Assembly (NCBI RefSeq): GCF_017308985.1
Contig: NZ_JADWPE010000002.1
Location: forward strand, 806,001 to 870,000
Reading direction: 5' to 3'
Length of the DNA stretch: 64,000 bases
Source: Lysobacter changpingensis
Lineage (GTDB): Bacteria > Pseudomonadota > Gammaproteobacteria > Xanthomonadales > Xanthomonadaceae
The position numbers and the translations under genes are program-made. This document shows, piece after piece, positions 40,190 through 50,597 of this stretch. The notes beneath the pieces are model-generated. The model made no database searches. It was not told where the DNA came from and was given only the letters and a program-made list of their open reading frames with translations. Each line of letters starts with the position of its first letter. Position 1 is the stretch's first letter.

Positions 40190-40981
40190 TCACGGCGCGA
40201 CGGGATCCCCGCCGCGCTCCTTGCAACCCCAGTTGAGGATCGGCGTGCCCGGTGGCAGCACGCGGCGGAACATCGCCACGCGGCGGCGCTTCGGATTGAC
40301 CACCACCGGCTTGCGCGCGGCCTTGAGCAGCGGCAGGTCGGCGCTGCTGTCGGAGTACGCGACGGCGATCTGGTCGTAGCCCGCGTCCCAGATCATCCGC
40401 ATCTTGTTCTCGTGATGGCAGTGTTCGACGGTGATCATGCCGCCGAGGAACGGGCCGCCGATGCTGCCGATCACCGGCAGGTCCTCGTGCGCGACGAAGT
40501 CCAGGATCGCGCGCGCCAGCTCCGGCGAGGCGCCGGTGGCGATGATCACGCGATCGCCCGCGTCGCGGTGCTTCTGCAGCACCTTCAGCGCGGTCGGCAG
40601 CAGGCGCGCGCGGATCTCCTTCGCATGCTTGCGCACGTACAGGTCGATCAGGCGGTCCATGTCGTGGCGCCGGTGCGTGCCCAGCGTCGCGATCCACAGG
40701 TAGACCGAAATCGCGTGACGGCGCGTCGGCAGCCACGCGATCAGCGGCAGCAGCAGCGGCGACAGCGCGATCGCCGCCGCCACGCGCGCCCAATCGCGCC
40801 TGATCAGCCACAACACCAGGTGGCTGCCCGAATCGCCGTCGTACAGCGTGTGGTCGAAGTCGAACACGACCAGCGGCGCGTACGGGCGTTCGCCCGGCTT
40901 GTCCTCGCCCGTCGTCTGCACGGCCGCCGCGCCCGGCAGGTGCTCGACGCCTTCGGGCATGTTCGCCTTGTGCGTGCTCAT
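40190..40981 (-). CDS. HAD-IB family phosphatase
   Basis: A 263-residue HAD-superfamily hydrolase. The nucleophile motif is [12 protein letters not shown] (D41, D43), motif II is [12 protein letters not shown], and motif III/IV follows as [14 protein letters not shown]. The insert [26 protein letters not shown] is hydrophobic, as in PgpC/SerB-like HAD-IB membrane-associated enzymes. The start overlaps the trpC stop by four bases (ATGA), so it is the last gene of the trp operon. A role in tryptophan synthesis is not expected; phosphoserine or lipid phosphate are possible substrates. Confidence 0.8.
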
Positions 40982-41769
40982 GCGACGAACAGCCGCTGCA
41001 GGGCGACGCCGGGCTCGGCCTCGCGCATGAACGATTCGCCGACCAGGAAGGTCTGCACGCCGGCCTCGCGCATCTTGGCGACGTCCGCCTGCGTGGCGAT
41101 GCCGCTTTCGGTCACCAGCGTGCGGTCGCGCGGCACCGCGTCCTTCAGCGCGAGCGTGGTGTCGAGCGAGACCTCGAACGTGCGCAGGTTGCGGTTGTTG
41201 ACGCCGATGAGTTCGCAGTCGGTCTGCAACGCGCGCTCGAGCTCGTCGATGTCGTGCACTTCCACCAGCACGTCCATGCCCAGTTCCATGGCGAGGTTGG
41301 CCATTTCCACCAGCGGACCGTCTTCCAGCGCGGCGACGATCAGCAGGATCGCGTCGGCGCCGATCACGCGCGCCTCGTACACCTGGTACGGATCGATGGT
41401 GAAGTCCTTGCGCAGCACCGGCAGCGAACACGCCGCGCGCGCTTCGCCCAGGTACAGATTGCTGCCCTGGAAGAAATCGACGTCGGTCAGCACCGACAGG
41501 CACGCAGCGCCGCCGGCTTCGTAGCTGCGCGCGATCTGCGCAGGATCGAAGTCCTTGCGGATCAGCCCCTTCGACGGGCTGGCCTTCTTCACTTCGGCGA
41601 TCACCGCCGCCTCGCCCGCGGCATGCCTGCGACGGATGGCATCGGCGAATCCGCGCGTGGGTGGCTGCTGCAGCGCGCGCGCGCGCAGGTCTTCGAGCGG
41701 CCGTACGCGGCTGCGCTGCTGGATCTCCTCGGCCTTGCGGGCGAGGATCGTGTCGAGGATGTCGCTCAT
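40978..41769 (-). CDS. trpC: Indole-3-glycerol phosphate synthase
   Basis: A 263-residue TIM-barrel enzyme closing the indole ring in tryptophan synthesis. [13 protein letters not shown] contains the substrate Lys, [23 protein letters not shown] and [11 protein letters not shown] follow, and LVTESGI is near the end. It is the monofunctional form without fused TrpF. It is separated from the upstream ABM gene by 70 bp carrying a perfect 18-bp inverted repeat, and overlaps the HAD gene by four bases. Confidence 0.96.
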
Positions 41770-41786
41770 GACAGGAACGGGTGGAA

Positions 41787-41837
41787 AGGAACGAGAAACG
41801 AGTGCGGGGTGTTGCCTCCCACTCGTTTCTCGTTCCT
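41787..41837. repeat. Perfect 18-bp inverted repeat upstream of trpC
   Basis: Arms AGGAACGAGAAACGAGTG (41787-41804) and CACTCGTTTCTCGTTCCT (41820-41837) are perfect complements around a 15-base loop. It lies between the ABM gene stop and the trpC start inside the trpGDC operon. It could act as an RNA processing or stability hairpin, or be a mobile repeat. Confidence 0.85.
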
Positions 41838-41839
41838 CT

Positions 41840-42181
41840 TCAGCGTTTTCTCTCCTTTCCGTACGCGCGTTCGACTTTCGCCACGCGCAGCTCGAAGTGT
41901 TCGTACCAGTGCACGCGACCGTGCGCGCGCGTGGCGGCATGTTCGGCGTGCTGGCGCCAGGCGGCGATCGCGGCCTCGCTGTCCCAGTACGAGACGGTGA
42001 TGCCGAAGCCGTCCGCGCCGCGCGTGGATTCCACGCCGAGGAAGCCCGGCATCGTGGCGGCGAGTTCGACCATGCGTTGCGCCGCCTCGCCGTAGCCGGC
42101 GTTGTCCTCGCCGTTGCGGCGCGAGGAGAAGATCACCGCGTAATACGGCGGGGCCGGCAGGCGGGCGAACGCGTCGTCCAT
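41840..42181 (-). CDS. Antibiotic biosynthesis monooxygenase (ABM) domain protein
   Basis: A 113-residue ferredoxin-like-fold protein. [40 protein letters not shown], then [19 protein letters not shown], is the classical ABM/DUF3291-like pattern with the conserved W-x-x-x-x-EH. Such proteins include small oxygenases and haem-degrading enzymes. The start overlaps the trpD stop by one base (TGATG), so it is an integral part of the trp operon in this organism. No link to tryptophan synthesis is known; function open. Confidence 0.82.
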
Positions 42182-43227
42182 CAGGCGCCCACCGCTTCGC
42201 CGGCGAGTTCGCGCGTGATCGCGACGAATTCCTCCAGCTTGCGCTTCGCCGCGCCGGAGGCCAGCGCCGCGCGCGCGCGTTCGATGCCTTCGGCGATGCT
42301 GTCGGCCACGCCGGCGGCATAGATCGCGGCGCCCGCGTTGAGCGCGACGATCTCGCGCGGCAGGCAGGCTTCGTCGTTCAACGCCTGCATCAGCAGGACC
42401 TTGGATTCGGCCGCGTCGTTCACGCGCAGGTTGCGGCTGGCGGCCATGGCGATGCCGAAGTCTTCCGGATGCACTTCGTACTCGCGCACGACGCCGTCGC
42501 GGAGTTCGCCGACAAGGCTGCCGGCACCGAGCGACAGCTCGTCCATGCCGTCGCGTCCCCACACCACCAGTGCACGCTGCGCGCCGAGTTCCTGCAGCAC
42601 GCGCACCTGGATGCCGACCAGGTCCGGATGGAACACGCCCATCAGGATGCTCGGCGCATCGGCCGGGTTGGTCAGCGGCCCGAGGATGTTGAACATCGTG
42701 CGCACGCCCATCTCGCGGCGCACGGGCGCCACGACCTTCATCGCCGGGTGGTGGATCGGCGCGAACATGAAGCCGATGCCGCAGCGTTCGATGCAGCGCG
42801 CGACCTGCCCGGGCTGGAGTTCGATCGCCGCGCCCAGCGCTTCCAGCGCGTCCGCGCTGCCGGATTTGGACGACACGCTGCGATTGCCGTGCTTGGCGAC
42901 CTTCGCGCCGGCGGCGGCGACCACGAACATGCTCGCCGTCGAGATGTTGAAGGTGTGCGCACCGTCGCCGCCGGTGCCGACGATGTCGACCAGGTGGGTG
43001 CGATCGGCGACGTCCACCGGCCGCGCGAACTCGCGCAGCACCGTTGCCGCGCCGGCGATCTCGCCGACGGTTTCCTTCTTCACGCGAAGGCCGGTGAGGA
43101 TCGCCGCGGTCATCGTCGGCGAGACCTCGCCGCGCATGATCATGCGCATCAGCTCGACCATCTCGTCGTGGAAGATTTCACGATGCTCGATGGTGCGTTG
43201 CAGGGCTTCTTGCGGGGTGATGGGCAT
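42181..43227 (-). CDS. trpD: Anthranilate phosphoribosyltransferase
   Basis: A 348-residue enzyme attaching phosphoribose to anthranilate. The PRPP-binding [14 protein letters not shown] and the [21 protein letters not shown] stretch are intact. GPLTNPADA and GMDELSLG follow as usual. Start [18 protein letters not shown] matches the family N terminus. It lies 116 bp after trpG and is coupled to the ABM gene downstream. Confidence 0.96.
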
Positions 43228-43343
43228 GGCGGCGGCGGGCGTGGCGGACGGGAAGCGGGTCTCGGGCGGGTGAGAGCGGAACGATAGCAGCTGGCGCGCG
43301 GGCACCGGGGCGTTTCGCAACCGGCGCTTGGCGTGGGAGCCGG

Positions 43344-43934
43344 TCATCGCTCGAGGAAGTTCTTCAGCAGCGCATGGCCGTGTTCGGTGAGGATCGACTC
43401 GGGGTGGAACTGCACGCCCTCGACCGGATGCTCGCGATGGCGCAGGCCCATGATCTCGTCGAAGGCCGGCGCGCCGTTTTCGCCCTCCACTTCGGTCCAG
43501 GCGGTGATTTCGAGGCAATCGGGCAGCGTGTCTCGGGAGACGACCAGCGAGTGGTAGCGCGTGGCCTCGTAACCGTCGGGCAGGCCAGCGAACACGCCGC
43601 GCCCCTCGTGACGGATGCGCGAGGTCTTGCCGTGCATGATCCGCTTGGCACGGACGACGTCGCCGCCGTACGCCTGCCCCAGGCTCTGGTGCCCCAGGCA
43701 CACGCCGAACACCGGGATGCGCGGGCCGAGTTCGCGGATCACGTCCACCGACACGCCCGCCTCGTTCGGCGTGCACGGGCCCGGGGAGACGACGATGCGC
43801 TCAGGCGCGAGCGCCTCGATCTGCGCCACGCCGAGCTCGTCGTTGCGGATCACCTTCACCTCGGCGCCCAGCGCCTGCAGGTACTGCACGAGGTTGTAGG
43901 TGAAGCTGTCGTAGTTGTCGATCATCAACAGCAT
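43344..43934 (-). CDS. trpG: Anthranilate synthase glutamine amidotransferase component
   Basis: A 196-residue class I amidotransferase delivering ammonia to TrpE. The start [18 protein letters not shown], catalytic Cys in [12 protein letters not shown], and the His-Glu pair in [13 protein letters not shown] are all present. A GTG two codons upstream is an alternative start. It is the first structural gene of a trpG-trpD-ABM-trpC-HAD unit. A Trp-rich leader frame lies upstream at 44052-44177. Its partner trpE is about 5 kb away at 47809. Confidence 0.96.
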
Positions 43935-44051
43935 CGGCACGGGCTCGGGTTCGATGTGGACGCAACGCGATTATCCCGCGCGGCGGCGGGCCGGCGGGGG
44001 CATCGGTGCGAAGGGGATGTGCGGGACGCGGCCGGTGCGTCCGGCGGAAGG

Positions 44052-44177
44052 TCAGTGCGTGGGGCGGGAAACACTCGGCAGTTCCTTGGACGACGAAGAC
44101 GGGCGGACGGCAGCCAACGGCCACCATCGCCAACCCTGGTCGGCTTTTCGGAACTGTGGGGAGCGACGCACGATCAT
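44052..44177 (-). CDS. Putative tryptophan leader peptide of the trpG operon
   Basis: A 41-codon frame (MIVRRSP...DQGWRWWPLAA...) whose codons 16, 18 and 19 are all Trp (GWRWW). It ends 117 bp before trpG. Trp is rare in proteins, so three Trp codons in four in this position suggest a leader peptide sensing charged tRNA-Trp. The ATG lies six bases after a TACAGT hexamer shared with the trpE leader, and no Shine-Dalgarno is visible, which fits a leaderless start. I found no U-tract terminator, so the control mechanism is open. The assignment is inferred. Confidence 0.5.
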   Translation of the reverse strand: MIVRRSPQFRKADQGWRWWPLAAVRPSSSSKELPSVSRPTH

Positions 44178-44183
44178 GGGCCT

Positions 44184-44212
44184 ACTGTAACGGCTCGGCC
44201 GGCGCGATGCGA
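44184..44212 (-). promoter_or_regulatory. Shared trp promoter-like element upstream of the trpG leader
   Basis: On the minus strand TCGCATCGCG (44212-44203), a 13-base spacer, then TACAGT (44189-44184), then six bases to the leader ATG. The same blocks precede the trpE leader with a 14-base spacer. TACAGT fits a -10 element and TCGCAT a weak -35 at about 17 bp. Confidence 0.45.
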
Positions 44213-44221
44213 CCCGCCGGC

Positions 44222-45598
44222 TCAGGCAGGCGGCAGGATCACCCGCACGCGCAGGCCGGGCCCGCGGTCGAGGAGTTCGATCCGCCCGCCATGGCGCAGC
44301 GCGATGGCCCGCGCCAGGCTCAGCCCCAGGCCACTGCCGGGCGTGCCGCGATGGGATTCCAGGCGCTGGAAGCGGTCGAACACGCGCTCGCGATCGGCGT
44401 CCGGAATGCCGGGGCCTTCATCGTCGACGCACAGCACGACGGCCTCGCCCGCATGCAGCGACAGGCCCACCTGGCTGCCTTCGGGCGCGTACTTGAGCGC
44501 GTTGTCGAGCAGGTTCACCAGCAACTGGAACAGCTGGTCGCGATCGCCGCGCACGCGCGCCGGCGAGAGGTCCACGCGCAGCCGCACGCCGCGTTCGGCG
44601 CCGATCGGCGTGTACAGCTCGGCGGCGTCGGCGGCCAGCGCGGAAAGGTCGAGCAACGGCCCCTCGCCCGCCGGCGGCTGCGCTTCGATCCGCGCGAGCC
44701 GCAGCAGCGCGCCGAACGTGGTGAGCAGCTGGTCGGTCTCCTGCACGGCGCCGTCGAGCGCGGCGCGTTCGGCGGGCGTGGCGTCGGCACGGTGGCGCAG
44801 GTCTTCCAGCCGGTTGCGAAGGCGGGTGAGCGGCGTGCGCAGGTCGTGGGCGATATGGTCGGTCGCGTGGCGCACGCCGCCGAGCAGCTCCTCGATGCGG
44901 TCGAGCATCGCGTTGAAGCGCCGCCCGAGCCGGTCGAACGCATCGCCGCTGCCGTCCAGCGGCACGCGCAGGCCAAGTTCGCCGCGGCCCACGCGCGCGG
45001 CCGTGCGATCGAGATGCTCCAGCCGGTGCGACACCCAGCGCGAGGTCAGCCAGCCGGCAAGCGCGCCGAGCGTCGCCGCCACCGCCAGCGCCACCAGCGC
45101 CGTGCGCAGCATCAGCGCGAGGAAGCGGTCCTGCGATTGCAGCCGCAGTCCGGTCAGCAGCGTGTCGCCGCCGGGCAGCGGCTGCAGTTGCGCGAGCACG
45201 CGGCGCGACTGCGCACCGATGCCGGGCGCCTGCGCGTCGGCGAGTTCGAACGTGACCCAGCGCGCGCCGCGGCCGGTCCGCATCGCCCGCGCGCCCATCG
45301 ACGGCACATCGCCCACTTCGACGCGGCCGCTCGCGGCGATCAGCGCGTGCACGGCGTCCGGATCGTCCGGCGCTTCCACGCGATCGCGCAGTTCCTGCAC
45401 CAGCGCGGCACGGCCGCCGTCGCGGTGCAACTGCATCAGTCCGGCGGCGTCTGTGCGCACGAGTTCGCGCGTGTCCTGCAGCAGCAGCGTGGAGACCGCG
45501 ACGTACACGCCCGTGCCGAGCAGCACGAAGGCAAGCAGGAACGCACCCATCACCGCGAGCGCGAGGCGCGTGCTCGTGGAGCGCAGCGGCCGCGTCAT
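44222..45598 (-). CDS. Two-component sensor histidine kinase
   Basis: A 458-residue membrane kinase. An N-terminal TM helix (about 12-35), a periplasmic loop and a second TM (about 165-190) lead to a HAMP domain. The phospho-His is in HIAHDLRTPLTRLRNRLEDL, the N box is LLVNLLDNALKYAP, and G boxes are VDDEGPGIPD and GSGLGLSLA. The start overlaps the response regulator stop by four bases. The signal is unknown. The periplasmic loop of about 130 residues has no recognised sensor fold. Confidence 0.9.
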   Translation of the reverse strand: MTRPLRSTSTRLALAVMGAFLLAFVLLGTGVYVAVSTLLLQDTRELVRTDAAGLMQLHRDGGRAALVQELRDRVEAPDDPDAVHALIAASGRVEVGDVPSMGARAMRTGRGARWVTFELADAQAPGIGAQSRRVLAQLQPLPGGDTLLTGLRLQSQDRFLALMLRTALVALAVAATLGALAGWLTSRWVSHRLEHLDRTAARVGRGELGLRVPLDGSGDAFDRLGRRFNAMLDRIEELLGGVRHATDHIAHDLRTPLTRLRNRLEDLRHRADATPAERAALDGAVQETDQLLTTFGALLRLARIEAQPPAGEGPLLDLSALAADAAELYTPIGAERGVRLRVDLSPARVRGDRDQLFQLLVNLLDNALKYAPEGSQVGLSLHAGEAVVLCVDDEGPGIPDADRERVFDRFQRLESHRGTPGSGLGLSLARAIALRHGGRIELLDRGPGLRVRVILPPA

Positions 45599-46272
45599 TC
45601 GCCCAGCCGGTAGCCGGCGCCGCGCACGGTGTGCAGCAGCGGCCGTTCGAAACCGTGGTCGATCTTCTGCCGCAGGCGGCTGATGTGCACGTCGATGACG
45701 TTGGTCTGCGGATCGAAGTGGTAGTCCCACACCGCTTCCAGCAGCATCGTGCGCGTGACGACGCGACCGGCCTGGCGCATCAGGTATTCGAGCAGGCGGA
45801 ATTCGCGCGGTTGCAGTTCGATGCGCTTGCCGGCGCGGCGCGCGTCGCGGGCGAGCAGGTCCAGTTCGAGTTCGCCCACCGACAGGCGCGTCGGTTCGCG
45901 CTGCGTGTCCTCGCGCTGCCGGCGCACGATGCTGTCCAGCCGCGCGCCCAGTTCCGAATACGCGAAGGGTTTGACGAGGTAATCGTCGGCGCCGGCGCGC
46001 AGGCCTTCGACGCGATGGTCCACCTCGCCCAGTGCGGTGAGCAGCAGCAGCGGCGTACGGTTTCCGGCGCCGCGCAGAGTCTGCAGCAGCACCAGGCCAT
46101 CGAGCGCGGGCAGCATGCGGTCGAGCACGATGGCGTCGAAATTTTCCGTCGTCGCGAGGAACAGGCCCTGCCTGCCGTCGCCGGCATGTTCGACGGTGTG
46201 CCCGTCCTCGCGCAGACCCTTGCCGATGAAGGCCGCGGTGTGGGGATCGTCTTCGATCAGCAGGACGCGCAT
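45595..46272 (-). CDS. OmpR/PhoB-type response regulator
   Basis: A 225-residue regulator. The receiver domain (1-115) has IEDD, the phospho-acceptor in AIVLDRMLP and the Lys in YLVKPFAYSEL. The winged-helix output domain (about 130-225) has EFRLLEYLMRQAGRVVTRTMLLEAVWDYHFDP and VIDVHISRLRQKID. It is coupled to the kinase gene downstream. I took MRVLLIEDD as the start; MPSGVAMRV six codons earlier is possible. A small secreted protein gene lies directly upstream behind a strong terminator. Confidence 0.92.
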   Translation of the reverse strand: MRVLLIEDDPHTAAFIGKGLREDGHTVEHAGDGRQGLFLATTENFDAIVLDRMLPALDGLVLLQTLRGAGNRTPLLLLTALGEVDHRVEGLRAGADDYLVKPFAYSELGARLDSIVRRQREDTQREPTRLSVGELELDLLARDARRAGKRIELQPREFRLLEYLMRQAGRVVTRTMLLEAVWDYHFDPQTNVIDVHISRLRQKIDHGFERPLLHTVRGAGYRLGE

Positions 46273-46288
46273 GGCAACTCCGGAAGGC

Positions 46289-46328
46289 AAAAAAGGATAC
46301 CCCGACGGTGCTCACCGCCGGGGTATCC
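46289..46328 (-). terminator. Intrinsic terminator of the small secreted-protein gene
   Basis: A ten-bp stem GGATACCCCG/CGGGGTATCC with an inner CGGTG/CACCG hairpin, followed on the minus strand by six T residues. It sits between the small secreted-protein gene and the response regulator gene, so the small gene has its own transcript. Confidence 0.85.
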
Positions 46329-46365
46329 GCCCGCGTTGCACGGGCTCCGGGGACGTTGAAGGGGA

Positions 46366-46560
46366 TCAGCTCTTCTTCGCGTCGCTCTTGCTGGCGGGGG
46401 CGGCGGCCTTCTTGCCGGCGTGCTTGTGCTTGGAGATCGTGTGCTTGGCCGGGGCGGTCGACGCGGTCGGGGAGGCGGGCGCGGTGCTCGGCGGCGCGGC
46501 CAGGGCGGAACCGGCCAGCGCGGTCAGGGCGACGGCGAACAGGGACTTGCGCAGGTTCAT
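46366..46560 (-). CDS. Small secreted Ala/Pro/Lys/His-rich protein
   Basis: A 64-residue protein. A signal peptide (MNLRKSLFAVALTALAGSALA) is followed by a low-complexity tail rich in Ala, Pro, Thr, Ser, then Lys and His (KHTISKHKHAGKKAAAP). Composition and layout resemble the acid-shock protein Asr of enterobacteria, but it is shorter and has no clear repeats, so this is a comparison only. A perfect AAGGAG ribosome site lies seven bases before the ATG and an intrinsic terminator follows, both supporting a real gene. It precedes a two-component system, as asr is controlled by RstBA elsewhere. Confidence 0.75.
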   Translation of the reverse strand: MNLRKSLFAVALTALAGSALAAPPSTAPASPTASTAPAKHTISKHKHAGKKAAAPASKSDAKKS

Positions 46561-46757
46561 GGGTGACTCCTTGGTAAGACGCGGGATGACTCGGACGAGG
46601 ATCTTTGCCGGCCGGGACTGTCTTCCCGGTCGCAGGATCAGACTGCGCCGACGCGGCTCACCACGGGATTTCCGCTGGATTAACGATCGGTAATGTTGTG
46701 CGCGCCGATGGACGTCATCCCCGCCGATCCGTCCTCCTGGAATTCGTCACAACCCAT

Positions 46758-46784
46758 CATCCCGGCGAAGGCCGGGATCCAGGC
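46758..46784. repeat. Dispersed palindrome family A copy
   Basis: ATCCCGGC-GAAG-GCCGGGAT, an eight-bp stem with a tetraloop, followed by CCAGGCTGG. It is oriented opposite to the copy at 40-68. Confidence 0.75.
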
Positions 46785-46830
46785 TGGTAGCGGAGCTACG
46801 TGCGGTGCGCGCTTCTTCCGGACGACGTGA

Positions 46831-46860
46831 CGGCCAGGGTCCCGGCCTACGCCGGGACGA
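46831..46860. repeat. Dispersed palindrome family A copy
   Basis: GTCCCGGC-CTAC-GCCGGGAC, an eight-bp stem with a tetraloop followed by GACGG. It lies 46 bp from the previous copy and in the reverse orientation to it, so the two form a small inverted pair. Confidence 0.75.
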
Positions 46861-46919
46861 CGGTACGGGTGGGGTCGACGCGACCGACCTTCCAGCAGCG
46901 AACCAACGGCGAATCGCCC

Positions 46920-47621
46920 CTATGCCACGCCGCTCCCCCGCCGCAGCGGCACCGGTGCCGTCGCGATGCGCGCCTTCAGGTCCGCCATGGTCCCCGGCAA
47001 CACGACGAGGTAGGTGATCAGCTGCTCGGCCAGTTCCAGCAGCAGTTCCGCGTTGGCCTTGTCGATCGTCGTCTCGTCCTCGAACTGCCGTCCGAACGTG
47101 CCGCTGGGCGCAAGCAGTTGCGCGATGTCCTGCAACGGACGCGACAGGTCCACGTCGTTCGGCAAGGCTTCGAGCTTGCGCGTGAGCGACAGCTCGGCTT
47201 TCTCGTCGGGCAGCATGCGCGCCGTGAGCCCGCCGAGCAGGTGCCGCACGATCAGTGAACTCGCGCCCCATTCGGCATGGTTGTACAGCTTCAGCGCCGA
47301 TTCGTAGCTGCGCGCCAGCGGCGCCGACATCGCGTGCAGGTGTTCGACGCCGGCCATCGTCTCGCGTCCGCCGGGGCCGGGATGGCAGAACAGTCCGGAA
47401 GGCTTGTTGGTCCCGTCGGCTTCGAGCAGCTGCACGAACAGCACCGTGTGTTCGCAGCGCGCACATTCGAGTTCGCTCGCCGCCAGTTGTCGTCCGTGTT
47501 CCTGCCAGGGCCGCGCTTCGAACAGCGCTTCCTTGAGGCAATGGGGGCAGAGGATTTCCACCGTGCGCGGGAACGTATTGGAGAAACGCGACTGGACGTG
47601 TGAGTCGTGGACGAGCTGCAT
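46920..47621 (-). CDS. Zinc-ribbon plus DUF4145-like protein
   Basis: A 233-residue soluble protein. A zinc-ribbon is suggested by C25-x-x-C28 (ILCPHCLKEA) and C53-x-x-C56 (LECARCEHTV). The rest (about 95-225) is helical, with SYESALKLYNHAEWGASSLIVRHLLGGLTARMLP, resembling DUF4145, a HEPN-like fold found alone and inside some restriction or defence proteins. The catalytic HEPN R-x4-6-H motif is not obvious. It lies 187 bp downstream of trpE on the same strand but behind a strong hairpin, so it probably has its own promoter. Function unknown. Confidence 0.7.
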   Translation of the reverse strand: MQLVHDSHVQSRFSNTFPRTVEILCPHCLKEALFEARPWQEHGRQLAASELECARCEHTVLFVQLLEADGTNKPSGLFCHPGPGGRETMAGVEHLHAMSAPLARSYESALKLYNHAEWGASSLIVRHLLGGLTARMLPDEKAELSLTRKLEALPNDVDLSRPLQDIAQLLAPSGTFGRQFEDETTIDKANAELLLELAEQLITYLVVLPGTMADLKARIATAPVPLRRGSGVA

Positions 47622-47772
47622 GGCCGTCTCCTTCCCGCGTTGTCGGTGCCGCGATGACACCGTCCCGGCAGTGAAACCCGGTGTTTGTGAATAAAACGTT
47701 GTTGGCGCGCGCAGTCGGCCGCCACCCCGCGCGAAGTGAACGCGGCGTGAGAAAGGAACCGTGATTCGCATC

Positions 47773-47800
47773 GCATCGCGGCGCCGGTGCGCCGCGATGC
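47773..47800 (-). terminator. Hairpin immediately after trpE
   Basis: Twelve-bp perfect arms GCATCGCGGCGC/GCGCCGCGATGC flank a CGGT loop, starting eight bases past the trpE stop on the minus strand. T-rich sequence follows only after about 15 bases. It is a likely trpE terminator. Confidence 0.6.
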
Positions 47801-47808
47801 CCGGGCCA

Positions 47809-49305
47809 TCAAAGCCCGCGGGCCGCCTGCGCGACGGCGCGGAACAGCGCGCGCCCCTTGTTCATCGTCTCCTCCCATTCCATCGCCGGATCGGAGTCGT
47901 AGACGATGCCCGCGCCGGCCTGCACGTACAGGCGGCCGTCCTGGATGACGGCGGTGCGGATCGCGATGGCGGTGTCGGCGTCGCCGCTGCGACCGGGTTC
48001 GCCCCAGCCGAGGTAGCCGATCGAACCGGCGTACACGTTGCGCTTGATCGGTTCGAGCTCGCGGATCACTTCCAGCGCGCGGATCTTCGGCGCGCCGCTG
48101 ACGGTGCCGGCGGGGAACGTCGCGCGCAGCACGTCGGCGTAGCTCAGGCCCGGCTTCAGCGTGCCGGTGACTTCGCTGACGATGTGCATGACGTGGCTGT
48201 AGCGTTCGATCACGAACTGCTCGCCGACCTCGACCGTGCCCGCCTCCGAGACGCGGCCGACGTCGTTGCGGCCGAGGTCGATCAGCATCAGGTGCTCGGC
48301 GCGCTCCTTCGGATCGGCGAGCAGTTCGGCTTCCAGTTCCGCATCGCGCTCGGGCGTGTCGCCACGCGGGCGCGTGCCGGCGATCGGGCGCACGGTGACC
48401 TTGCCGTCCTGCAGGCGCACGAGGATTTCCGGCGACGAACCCACCACCTGCGTGCCGCCGACGTCGAGGTAGTACATGTACGGCGACGGGTTCAACGCAC
48501 GCAGGGCGCGATACACGTCGACCGGGCGCGCCTTGAACGGTACCGACAGCCGCTGGCTCAGCACGACCTGGAAGATGTCGCCGGCGCGGATGTATTCCTT
48601 CGACTTCTCCACCGCGTCGATGAAGCCCTCGCGCGTGAAGCCGGACACGAAATCGGCCTCGTCCAGCAGGCGGCCTTCCAGCGTCTCCGGATACCCCGGC
48701 CCGCCCTGTCGAAGGCGATGCACCAGCTCGTCCAGGCGGCGGTTCGCGCGCGCCATAGCGCGCGGTTCGGATGGATCGGCGTGCACGATCAGGTACAGCC
48801 GGCCCTTGAGGTTGTCGAACACCGCCAGCTCATCGCTCTGCATCAGCAGGATGTCGGGCGTGCCGAGCTCGTCTTCCTTTTCGCCAGCGGCGAAGCGCGG
48901 CTCGATGTACTGGATCGACTCGAAACCGAACCAGCCCACCAGCCCGCCGGTGAAGCCGGGCAGGCCCGGGATCGTCGGCACGCTGTGCACGGCGCGCAGG
49001 CGTTCGACTTCGGCGAACGGATCCTCGACGACGCGGCTTTCGACCAGCTCGCCGTCCTCGGTGACGAACAGCGTGTGGCCGGCGAACGCGTACACGCGAC
49101 GCGCCGGCAGGCCGATGATCGAATAACGGCCGAAACGCTCGCCGCCTTCGACCGATTCGAACAGGTAGGTGTGCGGGCCGTCGGCGAGCTTGAGGTAGAC
49201 CGACAGCGGCGTGTCGAGATCGCTCAGGACCTCGCGCACGACGGGGACGAGGGTATGGCGGTCGGCACCCGCCGCGGGGGCGGGCTGGAAAGGATCGGAG
49301 GTCAC
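47809..49305 (-). CDS. trpE: Anthranilate synthase component I
   Basis: A 498-residue chorismate-binding enzyme making anthranilate with TrpG. The N-terminal regulatory stretch [16 protein letters not shown] resembles the Trp feedback-site region. The catalytic C-terminal half has [51 protein letters not shown] and [12 protein letters not shown]. The start is GTG with an AGGGA ribosome site. A Trp-rich leader frame lies 55 bp upstream. The gene is separated from trpG by about 4 kb of unrelated genes. Confidence 0.96.
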
Positions 49306-49360
49306 GGGGCAAATCCCTGGATGTGTCAGGCGGTGGCGGAAGGCGGTCGCGGCATGCGCG

Positions 49361-49432
49361 TCACCATCGCCATCCCGCCTCGACGGTCGGGAAATGCGGG
49401 TTCGACAGGTGCGTGTCCGGCACGGGAATCAT
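49361..49432 (-). CDS. Putative tryptophan leader peptide of trpE
   Basis: A 23-residue frame (MIPVPDTH...VEAGWRW) ending in Trp-Arg-Trp directly before the stop codon, 55 bp upstream of trpE. Two Trp codons in the last three are unlikely by chance and fit a classical trp leader peptide. The GG-N-TGG-CGA-TGG-TG core is identical to that in the trpG leader. The ATG follows TACAGT by six bases and has no Shine-Dalgarno, suggesting a leaderless message. GGCGATGGTG over the Trp codons can pair with CGCCACCGCC just downstream (one mismatch, one wobble). No U-tract terminator was found. Confidence 0.55.
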
Positions 49433-49438
49433 GCCGGT

Positions 49439-49468
49439 ACTGTAGCCGCTCAACGGGCCGCGATGCGA
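49439..49468 (-). promoter_or_regulatory. Shared trp promoter-like element upstream of the trpE leader
   Basis: On the minus strand TCGCATCGCG (49468-49459), a 14-base spacer, then TACAGT (49444-49439), six bases before the leader ATG. It overlaps the last codons of the lipid kinase gene, so the conservation with the trpG copy is not explained by intergenic drift alone. Confidence 0.45.
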
Positions 49469-50403
49469 GCGTGGGCGAGCAACGGGCAATGCGCGGGCAG
49501 GTGCATGCGCAGGCGCGCCGGGACGCAGGCGATGGCGAACCGCCGCGCCTGCACCGGCTCGCCGTCGAGGTTGAGCGTCATCGGCGCGTCCGCTTCCACG
49601 CGCACCTCGCGCATGCGCCCGCGTTCGCCGACGTGGTCCAGCGCGGCGATGCGGCCCTCGCGGATCCAGGTGGCGACGGTGGTCGCCAGCTCGCCGGAGA
49701 GTTCCGGGACGATGGTGAGGTCGAGCAGCCCGTCGTCGATGCGTGCCTCCGGGCACAGCAGTTGCCCGCCGCCCGCCTGCCGCCCGTTGCCGATGCCGAG
49801 CGCGATGAAGTCGCCGCGCCAGTCGAAGCCGTCGCCGTGCACGCGCGCGACGATCGGCTCGATGCGCCCCATCCGCGCCACGCCGGTGACGAGGTACGCG
49901 ACGCCGCCGAGCAGCCGCTTCAGTCCATCGTCGGTCTCGACCGTCACCTCGGTGCCGAAACCGCCGCTTGCCAGGTTGATGCACCAGTGGCGCGCGCCGT
50001 CGGCGTCGACGCGCAGCACGTCGATCGCGTGCGGCGACGTGTCGGCGATCAGTTGCAGCGCTTCGTGCGGCTCCATCGGGATCGTCGCCGCGGTGGCGAA
50101 ATCGTTCGCGGTGCCGAGCGGCATCGCACCGAGCGCCGGCAGCGCATCGGCGTCTTCCGCGCGCTGCGCGAGCGCGCCGGCGATTTCGCCCAGCGTGCCA
50201 TCGCCGCCGCCGGCGATCACGCAGCGCACGCCATCCGCGATGGCTTCGTCGACGTAGCGCTTCGCATCGCCGCGTTCCCAGGTCACACGCACGTCCAGCG
50301 TCACGCCGGACGCGCGCATCGCTTCGACCGCGGCGCGCACGGCATCGTTGCCCGCGGATTTTCCGTTGAGGATCAGGCGCCAGTGCGTCGCCATCGTCGT
50401 CAT
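49450..50403 (-). CDS. YegS/DgkB-like lipid kinase
   Basis: A 317-residue diacylglycerol kinase catalytic-domain protein. The nucleotide-binding [17 protein letters not shown] is at about residues 65-81, and [10 protein letters not shown] follows, both typical of the YegS/DAGK family. The C-terminal half has [27 protein letters not shown]. It phosphorylates a lipid such as phosphatidylglycerol or diacylglycerol by family. Start choice lies between MTTMATHW and MATHW. Its 3' end overlaps the trpE promoter-like element. Confidence 0.9.
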
Positions 50404-50479
50404 GATCGTGAGCCCGATGCGCAGGCTAAACAGCGCGGGCGTGAGCGTTCGTGAACAGGCAAGACGTACGCGTCGCGTC

Positions 50480-50597
50480 ACATGCCCGTCATCGAACGTC
50501 CGGAGAATCGGAATCCATTCTCAAGGACGACGGGCGGAGGGGGGATTGCCTCCAAGTATTCCGGAGCAGGCCAGCGATGGCCTGCTCCTTTGTTTTG
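50480..50597 (+). ncRNA. Candidate small RNA ending in a strong plus-strand terminator
   Basis: Both flanking genes run on the minus strand, yet this gap carries an intrinsic terminator on the plus strand. Upstream of it is a GGAGG/CCTCC mini-hairpin with a G-rich loop (about 50536-50553). The 5' end is a guess and no convincing promoter was found. Confidence 0.25.
50563..50596 (+). terminator. Intrinsic terminator on the plus strand
   Basis: An eleven-bp stem GGAGCAGGCCA/TGGCCTGCTCC with a GCGA tetraloop, followed by TTTGTTTT. Polarity requires a plus-strand transcript, but no plus-strand gene is present here. Confidence 0.65.

Follow-up and report, generated by a model that had tools for sequence, protein, structure and literature searches.

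Two trp leaders in Lysobacter changpingensis

The stretch of DNA analysed here, in the following called the window, comprises 64,000 nucleotides of the 4.06 Mb genome of Lysobacter changpingensis (contig NZ_JADWPE010000002.1, positions 806,001 to 870,000) and contains trpE and trpG, which encode the two subunits of anthranilate synthase, at two separate sites. On the minus strand, to which all gene and leader coordinates given below refer, a DAGK/YegS gene (49450-50481) is followed by trpE (anthranilate synthase component I, 47809-49305), a frame without a Pfam match, the genes for a response regulator and a histidine kinase, and then trpG, trpD and trpC. The trpG gene (glutamine amidotransferase, GATase) occupies positions 43344-43940, and its start was taken to be the ATG at 43934 and not the GTG at 43940. 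The nearest named TrpE relatives (best 80 of 595) are found in Lysobacter species, two of them with 87% identity, and include L. xinjiangensis, which is now placed in Cognatilysobacter. For comparisons within the genus, 12 genomes were used, the source genome counted in.

Both trpE and trpG are preceded by a short leader frame with the clustered tryptophan codons expected of an attenuator. The trpE-side frame (49361-49432) specifies 23 amino acids ending in ...GWRW followed by TGA, with the Trp-Arg-Trp codons at 49364-49372, while the trpG-side frame (44052-44177) specifies the 41-residue peptide MIVRRSPQFRKADQGWRWWPLAAVRPSSSSKELPSVSRPTH with a WRWW stretch encoded at 44121-44132. A -10 element, TACAGT, lies shortly upstream of each frame (49439-49444 and 44184-44189) and is itself preceded by the decamer TCGCATCGCG (49459-49468 and 44203-44212). 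Downstream, the Shine-Dalgarno (SD) sequence of trpE, AGGGA, is located at 49314-49318. The SD within the trpG leader, AAGGAA (44082-44087), resembles the SD at the trpE start of relatives and is followed by a second small frame, sORF2 (43925-44074), which begins with GTG, spans 49 codons and overlaps the trpG start with its TGA.

A common promoter type and predicted leaderless transcripts

The sequence-only reading had placed TCGCATCGCG 13 or 14 bases upstream of TACAGT at both leaders, and this is indeed the arrangement present: TCGCATCGCG-N13-TACAGT on the trpG side (44212-44184) and TCGCATCGCG-N14-TACAGT on the trpE side (49468-49439). The start ATGs at 44177 and 49432 follow the hexamer after six bases (A plus five), and both leader frames open with ATGAT. 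When the whole genome was searched with TCGCATCGCGN{10,17}TACAGT, exactly two matches were returned and these were the two trp leaders. The reversed control gave no match in the genome, and the motif was absent from 100 shuffles of the window. TACAGTA, too, occurs in the window only at the two trp sites (0.25 copies expected; at least two copies in 2 of 100 shuffles).

In principle, the two upstream blocks could match by chance and the leaders could simply have ordinary promoters. TCGCATCGCG alone is a common word, with 95 copies in the genome versus four of the reversed word and four copies in the window versus 1.9 expected, and its copy at trpE is coding. Two exact spaced matches against none in the controls, together with a -35-like TCGC position that is conserved in relatives (see below), already disfavour this explanation, which we consider extremely improbable. 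No wider regulon became apparent: TANAGTNNNNNNATG was not enriched genome-wide (eight matches, the two trp sites included, versus seven for the reversed control), and AGCCGCTACAGTAGGC at up to three mismatches showed no excess (39 genome matches versus 318 for the reversed control).

For a wider comparison, the DNA preceding trpE was taken from 78 genomes and that preceding trpG from 37; a trpG stretch truncated at a contig end was excluded. A leader was scored when TANNNT was followed, after a gap of 5-8 bases, by a start codon and then by clustered Trp or WRW-like codons. Such leaders were detected in 68 of the 115 stretches (54/78 for trpE and 14/37 for trpG). Note that two genomes (G015 and G062) were tallied without a trpG leader because the available stretch was too short. 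Even though the script permitted gaps of 5-8, the distance from the -10 element to the start codon was 6 or 7 in 66 of the 68 leaders (52/54 for trpE, 14/14 for trpG), leaving no room for an SD. The leaders start with ATG in 43 of 54 cases at trpE, the remaining 11 having GTG, and in 14 of 14 at trpG. Since TANAGT-type elements in relatives keep a distance of 6-7 bases from the leader start, the trp leaders of this genome and its relatives are likely leaderless; at trpG the predicted transcription start is the A of the ATG at 44177. The earlier proposal that the leader peptides are read from leaderless mRNA thus gains support from the comparative spacing, from which the 5' end itself is deduced. 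In family genomes without a Trp leader, inspection by eye often revealed TGGCATACT shortly 5' of trpE, perhaps representing another promoter type.

A G two bases 5' of the -10 hexamer is present in 51 of 54 trpE promoters as well as at the trpG promoter of the window. Further upstream, 22 of 52 trpE promoters carry TCGC at -26 to -20 before the -10 element, where control windows averaged 3.4 hits (maximum 9). The same holds for 11 of 12 trpG promoters, and the one remaining stretch was too short; four rows were left out of this count (trpE of G089 and G200, trpG of G093 and G200). Exact copies of TCGCATCGCG at this -35-like place were much rarer (3/52 for trpE, 3/12 for trpG), as were those of TCGCNTCGCG (5/52 and 3/12), and neither occurred there in control windows. 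At the trpG leader of the window, the TCGCAT part of the decamer takes the -35 position with a 17-base spacer. Judged by its placement, the block is therefore a -35-position element, the first four bases of which are widely kept while the rest is common to few genomes. The conserved TCGC position supports a promoter type shared by both trp leaders, and the search in relatives that had been suggested along with the motif yields a split answer, with the exact decamer rare and its core in place.

A regulator shared by both operons had also been suggested, and a DNA-binding protein, TrpR or another, acting on TCGCATCGCG or around the -10 element would agree with the conserved flank of the hexamer and with TCGC at the -35-like position. 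The rarity of the exact decamer in relatives speaks against it. As a conserved operator TCGCATCGCG was rejected, with TCGCATCGCN{11,18}TACAGT occurring in just 3 of 197 genomes, the source genome being one of them; the matches in the other two (G058 and G167) were not linked to any trp leader. The trpE copy does lie within the end of the DAGK/YegS gene, an overlap that had been held to make chance similarity less likely. Inspection by eye showed the decamer in several genus mates, too, at the end of the coding sequence that precedes trpE. Since the copy is coding there and rare at that place, it is weak evidence for a shared regulator. As for TrpR, each of the 12 genus genomes encodes a single PF01371 protein. 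In the source genome, its gene directly precedes hisG, and it is presumably a histidine-type regulator. In all 11 genus genomes fetched (G200 left out), the PF01371 gene is immediately preceded by TGTATTAACGCGTTAATACA or one of its close variants, a palindrome that is likely the histidine regulator's own operator; the window lacks it even when three mismatches are allowed. With the only TrpR-family gene preceding hisG and having a palindrome of its own, the trp leaders are unlikely to contain a TrpR site, and TrpR control was rejected. We hold a shared DNA-binding regulator to be very unlikely.

A predicted leader hairpin pairs the Shine-Dalgarno sequence

Beyond the earlier reading, the comparison revealed pairing between an anti-SD stretch in the leader and the next ribosome-binding site. 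In the trpG leader, CAGUUCC (44150-44156) is complementary to GGAACUG (44085-44079), and the Trp-Arg-Trp-Trp codons lie within the 5' arm of an inner hairpin (44131-44102). In the trpE leader, the arm GCAUUUCCC (49389-49397) pairs with GGGAUUUGC (49317-49309), forming seven pairs around a 2x2 loop. Among relatives, typical arm pairs are GCAUUUCC/GGAAAUGC, CAGUUCC/GGAACUG and GCGAUUC/GAAUCGC.

Minimum-energy folds were computed for 67 leaders (54 trpE, 13 trpG) from the start codon to the next start. In 60 of the 67, three or more of the four SD bases paired with the leader part that precedes the Trp codons, compared with 31.5 expected once the codons in this part had been shuffled. The mean z-score of the folding energy was -1.9 and fell below -2 in 30 of 67 leaders. 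RNAalifold gave a weak result and the 62-row MAFFT alignment was gappy, so we resorted to the mixing of arms between genomes and to a smaller alignment. Arm mixing covered 62 of the 67 leaders, with trpE of G079, G089 and G200 and trpG of G093 and G200 excluded. Native 5' and 3' arms paired with a mean of -12.0 kcal/mol versus -9.7 kcal/mol for mixtures between genomes, none of 5000 permutations being as low, and native arms were better than the mixed mean in 47 of 62 leaders. The same outcome was obtained with one trpE leader per genus (29 genera; -12.4 versus -10.1 kcal/mol, 0/5000) and with the 21 trpE leaders of the ATG class (-12.0 versus -10.2 kcal/mol, 0/5000).

The smaller, plain MAFFT alignment contained 27 rows chosen by hand from the 62, namely 11 trpG and 10 trpE leaders of the own and nearby genera and six others picked for aligning without large gaps. 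Here, the outer helix reached a covariation score of 0.160 versus 0.074 for shuffled controls (0/500), and 83.7% of its cells were paired compared with 18-48% when the arms were slid against each other. One of its positions was UA in 10 rows, GC in 9, AU in 2, GU in 1 and another combination in 5. For the outer and inner helices together the score was 0.172 versus 0.130, and for the whole structure in all 62 leaders it was 0.170 versus 0.150 (0/500). By computation, the SD of the next frame is thus paired with the very leader segment that a stalled ribosome would open.

Trp codons in a leader peptide and strong hairpins are also the hallmarks of classical ribosome-mediated transcription attenuation of the E. 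coli trpL type, where charged tRNA permits a terminator hairpin to form before the structural gene. We searched for the U-run that such a terminator needs. In the interval from the Trp codons to the next start, none of the 67 leaders has five T in six positions; the longest T-run there is four, in a single leader, and a simple scan found no terminator in either leader of the window. A Rho-independent terminator in the leader was therefore rejected. No Rfam leader family matched the window at the gathering threshold, the sole match being a tRNA. Moreover, the leader frame runs without a stop to the trpE start in 48 of 51 cases, leaving no room for a terminator behind the leader; in this count starts were placed by script and are a few bases off in some genomes. 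Where visible, the leader stop lies 23-65 bases inside trpE; otherwise the fetched stretch ended first. Control through a terminator is consequently unlikely, and translational attenuation appears to fit better.

The same overlap of the leader frame with the trpE start could be taken to mean that ribosome traffic alone is decisive. Ribosomes finishing the leader would cover the trpE start, stalling upstream would clear it, and the hairpin would have no role. Three leaders stop before the start (those of the source genome, G000, and of G026 and G096), and the results of arm mixing and covariation conflict with an idle hairpin. We deem this explanation quite unlikely.

A small frame between the trpG leader and trpG as a possible relay

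DNA resembling the trpG leader was found in 24 of 119 family genomes and 14 of 54 genera. Of the 28 matches, 10 precede trpG (genera g1, g16, g27 and g52), 16 precede trpE and two lie elsewhere (G082 and G106). The leaders before trpG retain the SD and a start codon, and trpG itself follows only 137-386 bases further 3'. Starting with GTG, in one genome with TTG, sORF2 is open without a stop to the trpG start. Its end falls 10-13 bases inside trpG in 13 of 15 genomes: in 9 of 11 and, in a check on another genus for which the SD pattern was widened for one genome (G015), in 4 of 4. In the two exceptions, sORF2 runs in frame into trpG (G096) or occupies the third frame (G105). The 11 genomes remain from the 14 trpG leaders, one of which lacks a detected SD (G065) while G093 and its near copy G200 were excluded. 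As these genomes are related, no probability is claimed for the overlap.

Lengths of sORF2 vary widely while the frame relation stays, and comparison by eye showed no conservation of its peptide, as would suit a relay better than a protein. The 18 bases before the trpG ATG are free of AGGA, GAGG, GGAG, AGGG and GGGA in 13 of 14 genomes, the exception being G165 with GGGA. The layout suggests a translational relay by which ribosomes that have entered at the GTG of sORF2 would be passed to trpG. Upstream of trpG, GCGGGATAAT (43968-43982) is present in 9 of 12 genus genomes, in 6 of 12 as part of the whole 14-mer GCGGGATAATCGCG, which includes GATAAT (43970-43975). GCGGGATAAT may constitute a second, leader-free trpG promoter; the same stretch is also read as sORF2 codons.

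A duplicated regulatory cassette, one of the options of the sequence-only reading, finds support in evidence other than the upstream block, namely the Trp hairpin and the trpE-like SD and GTG of the trpG leader. We tentatively propose, at somewhat less than even confidence, that after trpG had parted from trpE the whole control unit of trpE was copied before trpG, comprising the leaderless Trp leader, the hairpin that hides the SD, the SD itself and the start codon. The body of trpE would have been replaced by a relay frame carrying Trp-controlled ribosomes into the trpG start, so that both subunits of anthranilate synthase would come under the same translational switch.

Proposed mechanism of regulation

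We consider it rather probable that both leaders act by translational attenuation on leaderless messages, the SD of trpE being controlled directly and trpG via the sORF2 relay. The proposal draws on promoter spacing, leader frames, SD/anti-SD pairing that is stronger within species than between them, the missing U-run and the sORF2 frame; from these we infer where transcription starts, that ribosomes stall, which way the switch works and that translation is coupled. Both trp transcripts would begin at the leader ATG or no more than one base away from it, and the leader peptide would be read from leaderless mRNA. The leader RNA would form one long hairpin. In its outer stem, the SD of the next frame would be bound by a UUCC-type stretch that precedes the Trp codons, and the Trp codons themselves would occupy the 5' arm of the inner stem. 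With ample charged tRNA-Trp, ribosomes would pass the Trp codons and the hairpin would re-form behind them; in most relatives examined, the passing ribosomes would also cross the trpE start. With the SD either hidden or crossed, synthesis would be low. When charged tRNA-Trp runs short, a ribosome stalled on WRW(W) would keep the 5' arm open and the SD free. At trpE the freed SD would serve trpE itself, and at trpG it would serve sORF2, which ends inside the trpG start and would hand translation over to trpG.

A number of observations weigh against this mechanism. As to the promoter, 24 of the 78 trpE upstream stretches lack such a leader. The script favoured hexamers ending in AGT, which scored higher, so the conservation of the hexamer is partly built in, with gap and flanks unaffected. 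A consensus sigma-70 scan of 43300-49700 returned no promoter, indicating that the -35 element is weak. As to the hairpin, fewer than three SD bases pair upstream in 7 of 67 leaders, and native pairing does not exceed the mixed mean in 15 of 62. The 62 rows showed no excess of pairs in which both sides had changed (6 versus 6.3 shuffled) or of further pair types (29 versus 30.6), and the 27 rows hardly any excess of the former (3 versus 2.2); note that the tested pairs came from the fold of one sequence and that the sequences are related, both of which inflate the controls. RNAalifold recovered only five pairs in the 62 rows, all of the inner stem. The trpE leader of the window is itself atypical in that it stops right after WRW, has AGGGA as SD and an interrupted outer stem. 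Finally, the two genomes G090 and G116 of the second genus have GAGG at a distance of six bases from the trpG ATG, so that independent initiation at trpG would be possible there, which slightly lowers the standing of the relay.

Leaders of trpE with a usable SD were found in 29 genera and, by eye, also in named Xanthomonas and Stenotrophomonas loci. If the mechanism holds, trpE would be governed in many genera of the Lysobacteraceae by translational attenuation of leaderless mRNA and not by the textbook terminator, and the copied control unit with its relay frame would show how two enzyme subunits can be kept in step after separation of their genes.

Further features of the window

The start of trpD (42181-43269) is approximate, its Pfam assignment having been run on 42262-43269, and the frame containing trpC (indole-3-glycerol phosphate synthase, IGPS) covers 40978-41940. 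Between trpE and the two-component genes, a GC-rich intergenic inverted repeat, CCCGGCGAAGGCCGGGATCC ... GGTCCCGGCCTACGCCGGGAC, was noticed by eye at 46747-46870 and resembles an interspersed repeat. A strong terminator-like hairpin followed by six T lies on the minus strand at 46295-46328, directly before the response-regulator start, and would terminate the small gene 5' of it.

Comparison with known systems

In the literature searched, we found no account of this arrangement in Xanthomonadaceae and, judging by titles, no study of a trp leader there, which is no proof of absence. The trp leader of E. coli has adjacent Trp codons before trpE, is based on a terminator and constitutes an Rfam family of its own. 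It shares the Trp-codon leader peptide with the leaders described here, which had no Rfam leader match. In erm-type translational attenuators, the signal is a macrolide-bound ribosome and not uncharged tRNA. At rtpA of Bacillus subtilis, the gene for anti-TRAP, a T-box acts as well, and we know of no leaderless start for the rtpA leader.

At rtpA, tRNA-dependent ribosome stalling on a leader with Trp codons governs translation of the next gene, much as proposed here, the target being anti-TRAP and not trpE or trpG (PMC11255114). Likewise, in erm-type attenuators a ribosome stalled on the leader presumably unfolds an inhibitory stem-loop 5' of the next gene (PMC5118997). Leaderless leader peptides have precedents in LeuL1, LeuL2, metL and thrL of Streptomyces lividans, and LeuL1, metL and thrL resemble the trp leaders in having no typical Rho-independent terminator; they come from other bacteria and concern other amino acids, and SD pairing is not described in the portion of that account consulted (PMC8079986). 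A likeness in a trp operon is offered by trpL-trpE(G) of Sinorhizobium meliloti, which is said to be free of transcription repression and has a leaderless trp leader (PMC7298713). There, a transcription terminator gives rise to the small RNA (sRNA) rnTrpL (PMC7298713), whereas the L. changpingensis leaders are two in number, have no U-run and are predicted to pair with the SD of the frame that follows.

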